Of a stretch of DNA of 64,000 nucleotides, positions 16,626-37,641 are shown one piece after another. The notes below the pieces were generated by a model. That model ran no database searches. It was not told where the DNA came from and was given only the letters and a program-made list of their open reading frames with translations. Every line of letters begins with the position of its first letter. Position 1 is the first letter of the stretch. Location of the stretch: NCBI RefSeq assembly GCF_900155435.1, contig NZ_LT700212.1:741570-805569 (forward strand). Reading direction: 5' to 3'. The translations under genes were made by a program, and so were the position numbers. Source of the DNA: Actinomyces provencensis. Its GTDB lineage: Bacteria > Actinomycetota > Actinomycetes > Actinomycetales > Actinomycetaceae.

Positions 16626-17684
16626 ATGGGACCTGATCCCTTGAGCGTCGAGTTCGTGGATGCCTCGACGGTGGGGGAGGTCCTGGCCGGGGCGGGGATC
16701 GACCCGCCCATCGAACAGAATGCCGCCTGGCAGGCCGTCGACGCCCTGGATCCCGACCGCAGGACGTGGGGCCACTGCGTGGTCCGCCGGTCCGGTTCCC
16801 CGGTGGCCGTCCTCACGCTGACCGAACTGGTCACCCACCGGGTGCACTTCCTGTGGGCGCGCCACGCGCCCGTGTGGCTCGTGGAGCCCTCCGAGCAGGA
16901 CGAGGCCGAACTGGTCGACCTCCTGCGCACCGAACTGCGTGCCAGGGACAGGTCCGCGGTGCACGTGCGCCTCGACCTCCACCACCAACTGGCCGGCACG
17001 TTCCCCCCCACCGGCATCATCGCCTACGACCACACGGTCGTCATCGACACCTCACTGCCGGGGGACCCCGCCACCACCTCGGAGGAGGAGGCCTCGGACG
17101 TCGTGCTGTCGCGCTTCAAGTCCCGGGGCCGCCGCGACGTGCGCAAGGCCGTGCGCGAGTCGGGCCTGGACTGTGCGGACGAGACCGAGCGGGCCGCCGC
17201 CGACTTCGACGAGTACCACGCGCTCATGGTCGAGACCGCCGAGCGCGACGGTTTCATCCCCTGGGGCAGCGAGATGTACCGGGACATGATCTCCGGTCTG
17301 GGACCCGACCACTGCCGCTTCTACACCGGACGCGTCGACGGTGAGCTCCAGTGCTGGTCCATCGTGACGATCTCGGGTCGTCTGGCAGCCCGCTACTACG
17401 CGGCATCCGCCACCTCGGCCATGCGCCGCAGGGCCTCCGACCGCCTCGTCCTCTTCGAGTCCGTCGCCCTCGCCCGTCGCGGCATCACCCACTACGACCT
17501 CATGGGCATCGGCTCCGAGGAGGTCCCCGAGCTCAACGGCCTCAACGAGTTCAAGACCAAGTTCTCCAAGGAGACCGTGGCCGTCGCCCACGCCCGTGAA
17601 CTGCCCCTGCGCCCCCTCGCCTACAAGGCCTACGTCGAGCTGCGCTCCGTCGCCTCGGCGGTGCGCCGGCGCGGCCGGTCCTGA
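16626..17684 (+). CDS. FemAB-type aminoacyltransferase (FemX-like), copy 1
   Basis: A 352-residue protein of the FemABX family, which transfers amino acids from aminoacyl-tRNA to the peptidoglycan stem peptide or bridge. It is a GNAT-fold double domain: the first half contains IEQNAAWQAVDALD and FLWARHAPVWL, the second FDEYHALMVETAERDGF, RYYAASATSAMRRRASDRLVLFE and YDLMGIGSEE. ATG at 16626 has RBS ggagga. A paralogue with the same landmarks lies at 34370-35440. The clear similarity and the separate loci suggest different positions or amino acids in the cross-bridge; the amino acid is inferred, not seen. It stands alone between divergent DUF3000 and convergent corA. Confidence 0.85.
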   Translation: MGPDPLSVEFVDASTVGEVLAGAGIDPPIEQNAAWQAVDALDPDRRTWGHCVVRRSGSPVAVLTLTELVTHRVHFLWARHAPVWLVEPSEQDEAELVDLLRTELRARDRSAVHVRLDLHHQLAGTFPPTGIIAYDHTVVIDTSLPGDPATTSEEEASDVVLSRFKSRGRRDVRKAVRESGLDCADETERAAADFDEYHALMVETAERDGFIPWGSEMYRDMISGLGPDHCRFYTGRVDGELQCWSIVTISGRLAARYYAASATSAMRRRASDRLVLFESVALARRGITHYDLMGIGSEEVPELNGLNEFKTKFSKETVAVAHARELPLRPLAYKAYVELRSVASAVRRRGRS

Positions 17685-32436: not shown

Positions 32437-32509
32437 GCGGATGTGGCTCAGTTGGTAGAGCATCACCTTGCCAAGGTGAGGGTCGCGGGTTCGAGTCCCG
32501 TCATCCGCT
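32437..32509 (+). tRNA. tRNA-Gly (GCC), copy 1
   Basis: A 73-base cloverleaf: acceptor GCGGATG/CATCCGC, anticodon stem CACCT/AGGTG with GCC in the loop TTGCCAA, T-arm GCGGG-TTCGAGT-CCCGT. CCA is not encoded. Identical to copy 2 at 32647. Confidence 0.97.
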
Positions 32510-32510
32510 C

Positions 32511-32582
32511 GGGCGATTGGCGCAGCGGGAGCGCGCTTCCCTGACACGGAAGAGGTCACTGGTTCGATCCCAGTATCGCCCA
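32511..32582 (+). tRNA. tRNA-Val (GAC)
   Basis: A 72-base cloverleaf: acceptor GGGCGAT/ATCGCCC, anticodon stem CTTCC/GGAAG with loop CTGACAC giving GAC, T-arm CTGG-TTCGATC-CCAG. It begins one base after the preceding tRNA-Gly. CCA is not encoded. Confidence 0.97.
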
Positions 32583-32646
32583 CGGTCGCGGCCGGACCAC
32601 GTCCGGTCGAACGGGGTGCGAGCCCCGACCGGCCCAGCGGTCGTGC

Positions 32647-32719
32647 GCGGATGTGGCTCAGTTGGTAGAGCATCACCTTGCCAAGGTGAGGGTCGCGGGT
32701 TCGAGTCCCGTCATCCGCT
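32647..32719 (+). tRNA. tRNA-Gly (GCC), copy 2
   Basis: Same 73-base sequence as copy 1 at 32437-32509, anticodon GCC. Confidence 0.97.
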
Positions 32720-32757
32720 CGATCCACCGGTGTCCCCGGGCAGTTGGTGGGCAGGAT

Positions 32758-32828
32758 GGTGGGTTGGCCGAGAGGCGAGGCAGCGGCCTGCAAAGCCGTA
32801 CACACGGGTTCGAATCCCGTACCCACCT
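32758..32828 (+). tRNA. tRNA-Cys (GCA)
   Basis: A 71-base cloverleaf: acceptor GGTGGGT/ACCCACC, anticodon stem CGGCC-like with GCA in the loop CTGCAAA, T-arm ACGGG-TTCGAAT-CCCGT. Confidence 0.96.
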
Positions 32829-32829
32829 C

Positions 32830-32901
32830 GGGCGATTGGCGCAGGGGTAGCGCGCTTCCTTCACACGGAAGAGGTCACTGGTTCGATCCCAGTATCGCCC
32901 A
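32830..32901 (+). tRNA. tRNA-Val (CAC)
   Basis: A 72-base cloverleaf nearly identical to the tRNA-Val at 32511 but with loop TTCACAC giving anticodon CAC, and small D-arm changes. It begins one base after tRNA-Cys. Confidence 0.97.
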
Positions 32902-32908
32902 CCGAAAC

Positions 32909-32941
32909 GGGGCAGGTCAGAGCGGGTCTCTGATCTGCCCC
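32909..32941 (+). terminator. Terminator of the tRNA cluster
   Basis: GGGGCAGGTCAGAG and CTCTGATCTGCCCC form a 14-bp stem with one G-U pair and a 5-base loop, followed by a pyrimidine-rich tctccattcc tail, 8 bases after the last tRNA. Confidence 0.8.
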
Positions 32942-33041
32942 TCTCCATTCCGGTGGGGTGAGGGCCGGACGGCGGACATTCCTGACCTCCGTGGCCGGGT
33001 GTCCACGGCGTGCTGGGACCTGTGCGACCCCGCGCGGCAGC

Positions 33042-33047
33042 TAGTGT
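33042..33047 (+). promoter_or_regulatory. -10 element (TAGTGT) of the ATP-grasp/FemX pair
   Basis: TAGTGT, 41 bases before the GTG start; a usable leader with RBS (cggag) follows. No convincing -35. Confidence 0.35.
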
Positions 33048-33088
33048 GTCACGGGGCGGGAGAGGACCACCGCCGGAACGGAGCAGAG

Positions 33089-34348
33089 GTGTCGAACGAC
33101 GAGCATGGCGACAGGGACGACCTCCTGCCGGTCGTCCTGGGTGGTGACATCGGTGTCTACGGCATCGGACGCTCCTTCCACGAGGCCTTCGGGGTCCGCA
33201 GCATCGCGGTGGCGTCCGCGCCCACCGAGGCGGTCTCCCGCTCGGTGGCCTTCGAGACCGAGCACCTGCCGGCGCACGCGGACGACGTGACGGTCCTGGA
33301 GGTCCTGCGGCGTCTGGCCGCCACCCACCGGGGGCGCCGGATGGTGCTCATGGCCAACCACGACGTGCACTCCGCCTTCGTGGCCCGCCACGCCGAGGAG
33401 CTCTCCCAGTGGTACGCGTTGCCCTTCCCGGACCTCGACATCGTCGAGCACGTGACGGACAAGGCGGCCTTCGCCCGGGTGTGCGATGCCCTGGACGTGC
33501 CCACACCCGCGACCGTGCTGGTCGACCTCTCCACTGCGGAGGACCCCTCGTGGACTGCCCCTGAGGTCCCCTTCGACTTCCCCGTGGTCGCCAAGGCCGC
33601 CCGCGGTGACGCCTACGACGCCGTCGAGTTCCCCGGCAAGCGCAAGATCTGGTTCGTCGAGCACCCGGGTGAGCTCCAGGACCTGTGGACCACACTGCGT
33701 GACGCAGGGTTCCGCGGGACCTTCCTGGTCCAGGAACTGGTCCCCGGTGACAACACGCAGATGCGCTCCATCACGGCCTACGTCGACTCCACCGGTCGCA
33801 CGAGCCTGGTCGGTTCGGCCCGTGTGCTCCTGGAGGACCATGCCCCGACCATGATCGGCAACCCGGTGGCGATGATCACCGAGCCCTTCGAACAGCTCTG
33901 GCACGATGCCCGGCGCATCCTCGAGCACACGGGCTACCGGGGATTCGCCAACTTCGACGTCAAGGTGGACCCGCGCGACGAACGCGCACTGTTCTTCGAG
34001 GTCAACCCCCGCATCGGGCGGAACAACTGGTACATGACCGCCGGGGGTCGCAACCCCATGGTCCCCATGGTCGCCGACCTGGTGGACCACCGCCCCCCCG
34101 AGCCCGAGGAACTGCGCGCCGAGGTGCTCTACTCCCTGGTCCCGGACCGTCTGCTGCTCCACTACCTGCGGGACCCCGCCCTGCGGGAGCGCGTGGGCGG
34201 ACTCATCAGGTCCGGGCGCCGGTTCGATCCCCTGGAGTATCCTGCCGAGACCGACCTGCACCGCCGCGTGGTCGTGGCGTTGCAGAAGGCGAACCAGTAC
34301 CGCAAGTTCCGCCGGTACTACCCCGAGGCGACCGACCGGTCGTTCTGA
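33089..34348 (+). CDS. ATP-grasp carboxylate-amine ligase, probably peptidoglycan cross-bridge ligase
   Basis: A 419-residue ATP-grasp enzyme, a family that activates a carboxylate as acyl phosphate and joins it to an amine. The N-terminal preATP-grasp domain starts LLPVVLGGDIGVYGIGRSFHEAFG. The ATP-grasp core has FPVVAKAARGD with the ATP-binding Lys, FLVQELVPGDNTQMRSITAYVD, and the metal-binding FFEVNPRIGRNNWY near 312-325. It is not a typical D-Ala ligase or CarB in length or motifs; the closest known relatives by character are the D-aspartate ligases (Aslfm type) that add a D-amino acid to the stem peptide. The FemX-type gene 21 bases downstream supports a wall role. GTG at 33089 has RBS cggag. 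The actual amino acid is not readable from sequence. Confidence 0.75.
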   Translation: MSNDEHGDRDDLLPVVLGGDIGVYGIGRSFHEAFGVRSIAVASAPTEAVSRSVAFETEHLPAHADDVTVLEVLRRLAATHRGRRMVLMANHDVHSAFVARHAEELSQWYALPFPDLDIVEHVTDKAAFARVCDALDVPTPATVLVDLSTAEDPSWTAPEVPFDFPVVAKAARGDAYDAVEFPGKRKIWFVEHPGELQDLWTTLRDAGFRGTFLVQELVPGDNTQMRSITAYVDSTGRTSLVGSARVLLEDHAPTMIGNPVAMITEPFEQLWHDARRILEHTGYRGFANFDVKVDPRDERALFFEVNPRIGRNNWYMTAGGRNPMVPMVADLVDHRPPEPEELRAEVLYSLVPDRLLLHYLRDPALRERVGGLIRSGRRFDPLEYPAETDLHRRVVVALQKANQYRKFRRYYPEATDRSF

Positions 34349-34369
34349 GCCCGTGGACGGAGTTCCTGC

Positions 34370-35440
34370 ATGACCGACACCGGGTTCCGCTCCCTCACCG
34401 CCGAGGAGATGCGCAGGGCAGCTGCCGGCGTCGTGCCACTGCCCATCGAGCAGACTGCGGTCTGGGAGGCCTTCGAGGCCTCCCAGGGCAGGACGCTGTG
34501 GGGCCGCTACGCCTGGGAGGAGGACGGGAGGACCTGCGCCCTGGTCTGTCTCCACGAGATCTCCCTGCGCGGTTTCACCTACCTGTGGGCGCGGCACGGA
34601 CCGGTCTGGCTCAAGGAGCAGAGCCCCCAGCGGGCCCAGCGCTTCCGCACGGACCTGGCCCAGCTGGTGCGCCAGAGGGACCGCCGCGTGGTGTTCGTGC
34701 GCCTGCACGCCACGTACTCCGCCTGCGACCTGCGTGAGCCGATCCAGGGCATCACCTACGACCGTACGGTGGTCATCGACACCACCGGTGGCACCGAGGA
34801 GTCGGTCCTGGAGTCCATGACCACGGATGGCCGCCGCGCCGTCCGGCGTGCCCGCAAGCGCATGGACGAGGGCGGGGGCCGACTGCTCGAGGAGACGGGC
34901 CTGGACCGGGAGCAGTTCGACGAGTACTACTCGGTGCTGGTCGAGACCGCCACGAGGGACGGGTTCCGACCGCATCCCGAGCAGGTCTACTGGGACATGA
35001 TGACCACGCTGGGTCCTGAGCACGCCCGCCTCTTCGGGATCCGCGTGGACGGCGAGCTCGTGTGCTGGGACATGGTCGTCCTCAACGACCGTCGCGCCAT
35101 GGCCTACTACGGGGCGTCCTCGGCGCGGGCACGCAGCGTGCTGGGTCCCGACGCGCTCGACTTCGGGGTGGCAGTGATCCTGGCGGGGGAGGGGATCCAG
35201 GGCCTGGACCTCATGGGCGCCCACTCCCCACGGGTCCCGGAGCTCTACGGCGTCGGTCGCTACAAGCAGCGTTTCGCCCGCTCCTTCACCGACGTCGACG
35301 GTGCGTGGGACATGCCGGTGCACACCGGTGTGTACACCCTCCTCGTCAGGGCCCTGCACGCCAAGCACACAAGCCGCAGCCTGGGGGCCCGGCTGGGTGC
35401 CGACCTGCGTCGCCTGCGTGGGGACCACGACCGCGACTGA
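34370..35440 (+). CDS. FemAB-type aminoacyltransferase (FemX-like), copy 2
   Basis: A 356-residue FemABX-family protein, paralogue of the one at 16626-17684. Shared landmarks are [62 protein letters not shown] and [25 protein letters not shown]. It would use an aminoacyl-tRNA to extend the peptide side chain of the wall precursor at the membrane face. It follows the ATP-grasp ligase by 21 bases with ATG at 34370, so the two are co-expressed and probably build successive residues of the same bridge. Which tRNA it uses is not determinable here. Confidence 0.85.
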
Positions 35441-35509
35441 GGTGGTGCGGCACCCCGACGGGTCGGACCACGGGTGGTCGCCCTCGTCAGGGGGCACGGG
35501 ACCAGCGGG

Positions 35510-35515
35510 TAGCAT
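35510..35515 (+). promoter_or_regulatory. -10 element (TAGCAT) of thrS with structured leader
   Basis: TAGCAT gives a leader of about 100 bases before the thrS GTG. The leader contains a 7-bp hairpin, CCCGGGG (35575-35581) with CCCCGGG (35592-35598). No T-box sequence is visible. It may still modulate thrS. Confidence 0.4.
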
Positions 35516-35622
35516 GGGCGGGTCAGAACCCCGGGGGGACCCGTGTCCACGCCCGCACCCGGTACGTGCGGGGACCCGGGGGCAGTCGGTGCCCCGGGCA
35601 CCATGGATGGAGGAGCACACCT

Positions 35623-37641
35623 GTGCCATCAATCGACGTGACCATCGACGGCGAACCCCGCCAGCTCGAGGAGGGCACGACCGGCACCCAGTGGTACGCC
35701 GACCGACGTGAGGTCGTCGCCATCGAGGTCGACGGAACCCCGAAGGACCTCGCCACACCCCTGCCCACCGGCGCCACGGTCACCGCGATCACGATCGACT
35801 CGCCCACGGGCCTGGAGATCCTCCGCCACTCCACCACCCACGTCCTCGCCCAGGCCGTCCAGCAGGTGTTCCCCGACGTGAACCTCGGTATCGGGCCCTA
35901 CATCACCGACGGGTTCTACTACGACTTCGGCAACATCGACGCCGTCACACCGGAACTCCTGCGCGACCTCGACAAGCGCATGAAGCGCATCGTCAAGGAG
36001 GGCCAGACCTTCCGTCGCCGCGTCGTCTCCGAGGCGGAGGCCCGCGAGGAACTCGCGGACCAGCCCTTCAAGCTGGAGCTGGTGGAGACCAAGGGCTCAG
36101 GTGCCGATGACGGTTCCTCCGTGGAGGTCGGCCACGGCGAGCTCACCATCTACGACAACGTCCGCCGCGACGGCACCGTCGCCTGGAAGGACCTGTGCCG
36201 CGGCCCCCACCTGCCCTCCACGCGTCTGATCGGCAACGGCTTCGCGCTCACGAAGTCCTCGGCCGCGTACTGGCGCGGGGACCAGTCCCGTGACGCGCTC
36301 CAGCGCATCTACGGCACCGCCTGGGCCACGAAGGACGACCTCGTCGCCTACCAGGAGCGCCTCAAGGAGGCGGAGCGACGCGACCACCGCCGCCTCGGCG
36401 CGGAGCTCGACCTCTACTCCTTCCCGGAGGAGGTCGGACCGGGGCTGGTGCTCTTCCACCCCAAGGGGGGCATCCTGCGCCACGTCATCGAGGAGTACGT
36501 CGTCCAGCGCCACCTGGAGGCGGGCTTCGACTTCGTCCACACCCCCGAGATCACCAAGGGCGGCGTGTTCCACAAGTCGGGCCACCTGCCCTACTACGCG
36601 GACACCATGTTCCCCCCGATGTCCGTGGACGAGGAGCGTGACGCCGAGGGCCACGTGACCCGGGCCGGCCAGGAGTACTACCTCAAGGCCATGAACTGCC
36701 CGATGCACAACCTGATCTTCGCCAGCCGCGGGCGCTCCTACCGTGAGCTGCCGCTGCGCTTCTTCGAGATGGGCCACGACTACCGCTACGAGAAGTCGGG
36801 CGTGGTCCACGGCCTGACCCGCATGCGCGGGTTCACCCAGGACGACTCCCACACCTACTGCACCCCCGACCAGGCCGAGGACGAGATCAAGATGCTCCTC
36901 GACTTCTTCCTGGGCATCCTGCGCGACTTCGGGCTCACCGAGTTCTACCTGGAGCTGTCCACCCGGGACGAGTCGGGGAAGAAGAAGGACAAGTTCATCG
37001 GCTCCGACGAGGAGTGGGCCGAGGCCACCCGGATCCTGGAGGACGCCTGCGCCTCCACCGGCCTGGACCTGGTCCCCGACCCCGGTGGCGCGGCCTTCTA
37101 CGGCCCCAAGGTCTCCGTGCAGGTCAAGGACGCCATCGGGCGGACCTGGCAGATGTCGACCGTGCAGTACGACTTCAACCAGCCGCGTGGCTTCGACCTG
37201 CAGTACACGGCCGCCGACGGTTCCCGCCAGCGTCCCGTCATGATCCACTCCGCCAAGCTCGGGTCGGTCGAACGCTTCATCGGCGTCCTCGTCGAGCACT
37301 ACGCGGGGGCCTTCCCCGCCTGGCTCGCCCCCGTGCAGGTCCGCCTGGTGCCCGTCGCGGAGGCCTTCGACGGCTACGTCGACGAGGTCGCGGCGCAACT
37401 GCGCGCCCGCGGCGTGCGCGTCGAGGTCGACCACTCCGATGACCGCTTCGGGAAGAAGATCCGCAACGCCGCCAAGGAGAAGGTGCCCTACACCCTCATC
37501 GCCGGGGGCGAGGACGTGGCCGCAGGCGCGGTCTCCTTCCGCTTCCGTGACGGCTCCCAGGAGAACGGCGTCCCGGTCGGGCAGGCGGTGGAACGGATCT
37601 GCGCGCACATCCGTGACCGCGTGAACACCGACGCGCTGTGA
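35623..37641 (+). CDS. thrS: Threonyl-tRNA synthetase
   Basis: A 672-residue class II synthetase. TGS domain at residues 1-62; editing domain with [11 protein letters not shown] (HxxxH) and the later CRGPH; catalytic core with motif 1 region, the zinc ligand Cys in NCPMHN, motif 2 [13 protein letters not shown] and motif 3 GSVERFIG; anticodon-binding domain from about 565. GTG at 35623 ([10 protein letters not shown]) is preferred over longer upstream frames because the TGS domain starts there and ggaggag precedes it. First gene of a run through HIT, PIP synthase, PatA and PimA, the same order as in mycobacteria. Confidence 0.97.

Follow-up and report, generated by a model that had tools for sequence, protein, structure and literature searches.

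Among the closest described counterparts of the locus treated here are two ATP-grasp ligases, Aslfm of Enterococcus faecium and AslA of Lactococcus lactis. In the sections of a review that deal with them (PMC4155827), AslA is a D-aspartate ligase of the ATP-grasp type whose operon also holds racD, and most lactobacilli have D-Asp or D-Asn bridges. The window analysed here, a stretch of 64,000 nucleotides from Actinomyces provencensis, encodes a ligase (P0001) that we propose, from its sequence, to work like Aslfm and AslA as portrayed in the review, which is the sole basis of this comparison, by attaching a D-amino acid of the acidic kind to the wall precursor on its diamino acid side; lactobacillar homologues align over 96-97% of P0001. 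Unlike Aslfm and AslA, P0001 has no adjoining racemase and carries different clade-defining site letters, its proposed acceptor is an L-residue added by a FemX-type protein, and its proposed substrate is D-Glu. Because both racemase linkage and site letters of the D-Asp type are missing, P0001 is filed as a putative new specificity variant and not as a D-Asp ligase.

Cross-bridges of the A4 and A5 types that bear D-Glu are a long-used taxonomic marker, and the bridge of Actinomyces is of the form Orn/Lys-Lys-D-Glu; a published wall analysis of A. provencensis itself did not turn up. To our knowledge no enzyme has been named as responsible for adding the D-Glu, and a literature search of open-licence papers found none. 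MurD (UDP-MurNAc-L-Ala:D-glutamate ligase) resembles the proposed P0001 in using D-Glu and ATP in wall synthesis, but has the unrelated Mur-ligase fold and acts on the stem, not on the bridge. With a candidate gene the D-Glu step becomes open to test, and genomes could serve to predict wall type.

The gene pair and its surroundings

The gene for P0001 (33089-34348, forward strand, 419 aa, GTG start) encodes an ATP-grasp carboxylate-amine ligase, our candidate for a D-Glu cross-bridge ligase. Its stop is followed after 21 bases, on the same strand, by the start of the gene for P0002 (34370-35440, forward strand, 356 aa, ATG start), a FemAB/FemX-family aminoacyltransferase and our candidate enzyme for the L-residue, probably L-Lys. 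The first-pass annotation had described an unassigned ATP-grasp gene 21 bases ahead of a FemAB-type gene; reading frames, spacing and Pfam signals agree with this description. P0001 scores 25.7 bits against Pfam CPSase_L_D2 (cut-off 19.8) and is assigned to the ATP-grasp superfamily by this domain. P0002 scores 35.4 bits against PF02388 (FemAB, cut-off 24) and is assigned by that cut-off to the FemABX peptidyltransferase family, although its match is weak compared with those of full-length FemAB proteins, for example in the genomes G005 and G032 (E about 1e-94). In the NCBIfam search neither protein reached the cut-off of any model, so that the label 'unassigned' stands for the ligase; its best score, far below cut-off, is to a carbamoyl-phosphate-synthase-like group. 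Profile comparison likewise matched P0001 to carbamoyl-phosphate synthase and, weakly, to VanA, and the residues N306, R308 and R311, which are conserved family-wide, align with the ENPR-type motif of carbamoyl-phosphate synthase. A structure prediction for P0001, made from only two sequences (that of the window and one relative), has a mean pLDDT of 39, too low for the model to be of use.

The pair is situated between a tRNA cluster and thrS. The upstream landmark consists of five forward-strand tRNA genes (Gly, Val, Gly, Cys, Val; 32437-32903, ARAGORN), whose order also adjoins the pair in two further genomes of the genus (G030 and G033); the downstream landmark is thrS (35623-37641, forward strand; Pfam tRNA-synt_2b, HGTP_anticodon and tRNA_SAD), which is outside the proposed pathway and adjoins the pair in related loci too. 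Past the tRNA cluster, inspection by eye found a forward-strand hairpin (32910-32940) in which 32910-32922 pairs with 32928-32940 to give a 13-bp stem with one G-U pair and no T-run. It is a possible end of the tRNA transcript and is absent from the output of a terminator scan of 32850-35700. The promoter ascribed earlier to the pair was not recovered: a scan of the same interval for sigma-70-type promoters, a scan that is weak for high-GC actinobacteria, gave no site.

A second FemAB-family protein is encoded elsewhere in the window (16626-17684, forward strand; PF02388 28.6 bits, cut-off 24; 41% identical to P0002) and may be a predicted enzyme for another bridge residue. Second FemAB-type matches (34-42%) occur in 8 of 35 genomes of the genus and are near the pair in G007, G013, G033 and G004.

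The ligase is found at an identity of at least 61% in 32 of the 35 genus genomes, our own counted, the exceptions being G005, G030 and G032. In each of the 32 a FemX match is located beside it on the same strand, the match ends being 17-321 bases apart, and a pairing of this regularity points to more than chance. One scan of named genome contigs gave a sole locus, in Actinomyces polynesiensis, whose ligase is 86% identical to P0001; a scan of viral contigs for further relatives of P0001 found none. At the level of the order, 204 of the 396 genomes sampled have a match to P0001; the figures are 105 of 111 for the family, 79 of 80 for Cellulomonas and 53 of 101 for the family of G037, which we take to be the bifidobacteria. 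The plasmid collection holds 59 matching records, five of them with a query coverage of 80% or more; three of the five come from Lactobacillus crispatus, Limosilactobacillus fermentum and Latilactobacillus curvatus, and these lactobacillar ligases are 27.5-28.5% identical to P0001 over 96-97% of its length. The ligase gene of L. curvatus comes after aspS and an amino-acid racemase gene.

Several arrangements deserve mention in their own right. On a 96-kb plasmid of L. crispatus (L043, 4012-7266) the gene for a D-Asp-type ligase comes directly after one for asparagine synthase, possibly a mobile set for bridge making and amidation. One genome of the family (G186) has two full ligase-FemX pairs about 9 kb apart, the first beside thrS (L061, 3521-15871), and in another (G087) one ligase stands among three FemAB-family genes ahead of thrS (L064, 5469-10447), possibly a set for a longer bridge.

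Ligase clades and racemase linkage

D-Asp requires an aspartate racemase; D-Glu is made anyway for the stem peptide. As racemase neighbour we counted an aspartate-racemase gene at most 250 bases from the ligase, searched with domain-only queries, two of which are sound, while the third contained stops and carries no weight. The ligase tree (IQ-TREE quick search, LG+C20, SH-aLRT, no bootstrap) has 126 rows, omits the partial rows L042 and L141, and represents the redundant genus loci L002-L032 by L002-L004 only; a second tree (quick search, SH-aLRT, no bootstrap) has 134 rows, namely these 126 and eight from family f13. P0001 belongs to a clade of 80 rows with an SH-aLRT value of 100 in the 126-row tree and 99 in the 134-row tree. 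A racemase neighbour is found for 33 of the 126 rows: none of the 80 inside the P0001 clade, against 33 of the 46 outside. The 13 outside rows lacking one are those of L. crispatus and L. fermentum, L038 (near a contig start or end, so that its neighbourhood was judged on one side only), L119 (racemase 1.8 kb from the ligase), L140, four of Arcanobacterium type and four of a third Cellulomonas type. The 26 loci read in Cellulomonas divide in the same manner, with racemase neighbours in none of 12 in the P0001 clade, all 10 on the C. flavigena side (at 30-69 bases) and none of four of the third type. Bifidobacterial loci read on the D-Asp side have a racemase at 0-107 bases in 11 of 11 cases; L122 and L123, from the family of G037, are placed in the P0001 clade without a racemase neighbour.

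A genome-wide search with PF01177 gave a single match in 15 of 16 tested genus genomes with a P0001-type ligase, our own among them, and this sole match is presumed to be MurI; the second match of G033, a point against the pathway proposed below, is located on a different contig from the pair. Single matches were also obtained for Cellulomonas fimi (G573), C. gilvus (G379), G254, Sanguibacter keddieii (G231), Jonesia denitrificans (G353) and Brachybacterium faecium (G355). Three other genomes tested from the genus of B. faecium have one (G153) or two (G045 and G289), the second ones away from the ligases.

The genome G030 shows a different arrangement at the same site of the same genus. Between the tRNA genes (Gly-Val-Gly-Cys-Val) and thrS, HIT and pgsA it has a FemX gene (50%), then a ligase gene, then an Asp/Glu racemase gene, while the other genus loci have the ligase followed by FemX and no racemase there. 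The G030 ligase is 31-32% identical to P0001, with site letters (SHAPFVLS) mostly of the D-Asp side; it is a long-branch row whose tree position is unsure. To judge from gene order and sequence, G030 appears to have swapped in place to a D-Asp-type ligase with its racemase and to have kept FemX. This swap, our best single piece of evidence on the point, suggests that the ligase and not FemX would determine the acidic residue.

Wall chemistry and the proposed pathway

Among the few organisms available for a comparison with known walls, C. fimi has L-Orn-D-Glu, the A4gamma bridge of B. faecium has two acidic residues, bifidobacteria have D-Asp wall types, and the bridge of B. bifidum holds Ser or Lys. 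The genomes G567, G563, G271 and G555 are presumably those of Bifidobacterium adolescentis, B. bifidum, B. indicum and B. coryneforme. The passages on the wall in published accounts give L-Lys-L-Ser-D-Glu for Jonesia (PMC3035236), L-Lys-Ser-D-Glu for Sanguibacter (PMC3035225) and type A4gamma with meso-DAP, Ala and Glu for B. faecium, no Asp being reported in that passage (PMC3035206). Similar passages name Lys or Orn as the wall diamino acid of Actinomyces and describe L-Lys-L-Lys-D-Glu in Actinomyces neuii, Varibaculum and Actinotignum schaalii. The ligases of Jonesia, Sanguibacter and B. faecium, which has two in tandem, both inside, are members of the P0001 clade. Together with that of C. 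fimi they share with P0001 the lack of a racemase, N90 and a small residue at 243, at identities of 39-50%; C. fimi and B. faecium differ from A. provencensis in that no FemAB partner was found, and B. faecium in its two tandem copies. The ligases of the C. flavigena group (C. flavigena itself being G628) are of the same family (41-45% identical to P0001) but outside the clade, and have the racemase alongside in 10 of 10 loci. In C. flavigena, whose wall is described as Orn with D-Asp (PMC3035266), this ligase is the sole bridge enzyme found.

A PF02388 search of 22 chosen genomes found matches in 16, the six without being C. fimi, C. gilvus, C. flavigena, B. faecium, B. adolescentis and the tandem-ligase genome G042. 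FemAB is thus lacking in Cellulomonas, in whose bridges the acidic residue is attached directly. Matches are present in four organisms with a bridge residue of Ser or Lys (Sanguibacter, Jonesia, B. bifidum and Arcanobacterium) and in seven of seven ligase-less genomes tested (G005, G032, G432, G158, G477, G499 and G500; best E values 3.6e-26 to 6.5e-95), a set that leaves out G492, a family member of 76% completeness. The comparison supports the view that the ligase tracks the acidic bridge residue in A4 and A5 walls, and FemAB-family proteins the L-residue. The earlier idea that the gene pair follows D-Glu wall chemistry is supported by the named genomes and reaches wider than proposed, to A4 as well as A5; among these few genomes we found no pair in an organism whose bridge lacks an acidic D-residue.

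We consider it probable that the pair builds the Actinomyces cross-bridge, FemX adding an L-residue and the ligase then D-Glu. With aminoacyl-tRNA as donor, FemX would attach a single L-amino acid, probably L-Lys, to the stem peptide at the side-chain amino group of residue three (L-Orn or L-Lys). Free D-Glu would then be activated by the ATP-grasp enzyme as an acyl phosphate and joined to the residue added by FemX, and the amino group of D-Glu would serve as acceptor in transpeptidation. D-Glu would be supplied by the ordinary glutamate racemase, so that no dedicated racemase gene would be needed. In this scheme we infer what the ligase joins, which L-residue precedes it, in what order the two enzymes act and how the residues are linked. 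This division of labour had been suggested in the first-pass annotation and is in line with the named genomes of readable wall type, the ligase being on the racemase-free side. Since the step would supply the cross-linking amino group, it is probably essential in Actinomyces.

Arcanobacterium haemolyticum (G490), with a bridge reported as L-Lys-L-Lys-D-Glu (PMC3035375), speaks against this reading: its ligase is 27% identical to P0001, has a branch of 3.17 and carries neither site signature. It fits the pathway only as an adjacent FemAB-ligase pair and not by sequence; the ligation of D-Glu may have more than one origin, or this ligase may serve a different role. At the Arcanobacterium-type loci (L077-L080) a FemAB-family gene ends 3-34 bases ahead of a very divergent ATP-grasp gene, apparently a separate solution for the reported Lys-Lys-D-Glu bridge.

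Candidate specificity sites and competing readings

The 80-row clade is best told from the 33 racemase-linked rows by its letters at sites 90 (N against S/C/T), 243 (mostly S/A/T/G against F/L/Y), 139 (T/V against H/Y), 239 (T/S against R/K) and 312 (N against S/T). N90 is found in 77 of the 80 clade rows; six rows deviate at 90 or 243, three of them, including C. gilvus, by C at 243 alone. P0001 has the site letters NTTSSVIN, compared with CHSRLYQS or SHSRFYLS in racemase-linked rows, and the ligases of L. crispatus and L. fermentum, which are outside the site-defining set, have letters of the D-Asp side. The signature describes clades only, the separation being one event deep: a test of independent replication had too few pairs, with 4 starred; sites 90 and 243 differed in a mean of 0.2 of these, and nothing was significant.

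A third class is marked by R293, found in nine rows outside the P0001 clade, namely Beutenbergia cavernae (G257), five other f13 genomes, L038, L140 and L108, which do not form one clade in the 134-row tree. By locus, the R293 rows are L165 (5537-6775), L168-L172, L038, L140 and L108. A racemase search at the six f13 loci with R293 gave no hit. Because the Beutenbergia wall is published as L-Lys-L-Glu in the passage on its chemistry (PMC3035217), the R293 type may be a candidate L-Glu ligase. Five f13 genomes (G047, G098, G154, G066 and G082) have ligases of the N90 type, which is a caveat for assigning D- or L-Glu.

The homologue and L-Glu bridge of Beutenbergia make L-Glu a real alternative substrate in the family of P0001. 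That P0001 itself adds L-Glu, so that the bridge glutamate would be of the L-form, is in keeping with the fact that L-Glu needs no racemase and that the Beutenbergia locus has none; the Beutenbergia ligase, however, is not a member of the P0001 clade and differs in its site letters (R at 293), the walls of the clade members Jonesia and Sanguibacter are published as containing D-Glu, and we judge this reading very improbable. Also very improbable in our estimate is that P0001 belongs with Aslfm and AslA to the ordinary D-aspartate ligases and makes a bridge with D-Asp. Its full-length similarity of 27-29% to the ligases of D-Asp-walled lactobacilli would suit such a role, but none of the 80 clade rows has a racemase neighbour, 15 of 16 genus genomes with a P0001-type ligase have only one gene of the Asp/Glu-racemase family, the site letters are unlike those of racemase-linked rows, and the sole member of the genus with a D-Asp-like ligase, G030, gained an adjoining racemase.

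It could also be supposed that P0001 acts on another substrate, apart from the wall bridge, and that it stands next to femX for historical reasons. The substrates of ATP-grasp enzymes are many, and the best NCBIfam score of P0001, though far under cut-off, is to the carbamoyl-phosphate-synthase-like group; the ligase-FemX pairing in 32 of 32 genus genomes, the agreement of ligase, FemAB and racemase content with known wall types, and the two tandem copies of B. faecium argue to the contrary, and leave this supposition hardly credible. Returning to D-Glu as the proposed substrate of P0001, the loci may be drawn together in a wider scheme, for and against which we would give even weight. One ATP-grasp family would comprise at least three specificities, for D-Asp (racemase-linked), L-Glu (R293, as in Beutenbergia) and D-Glu (N90 with a small residue at 243, as in P0001). 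The class and number of its ligases, its FemAB content and its racemase linkage would reveal the bridge type of a genome, which would be switchable in place by a cassette swap of the sort that G030 appears to show.

Two further sets of loci were noted. Four Cellulomonas genomes (G587, G590, G412 and G594; L107-L110) carry a divergent ligase of a third type; a FemAB-family gene lies 1.4-2.9 kb from it, and a racemase is absent. In genus g9 of family f8, all five loci read (L033, L057, L113, L114 and L115) contain tandem ligases, of which the first belongs to the P0001 clade; the second does not, and has an aspartate racemase at a distance of 27-116 bases. These tandem ligases predict a bridge with both D-Glu and D-Asp.
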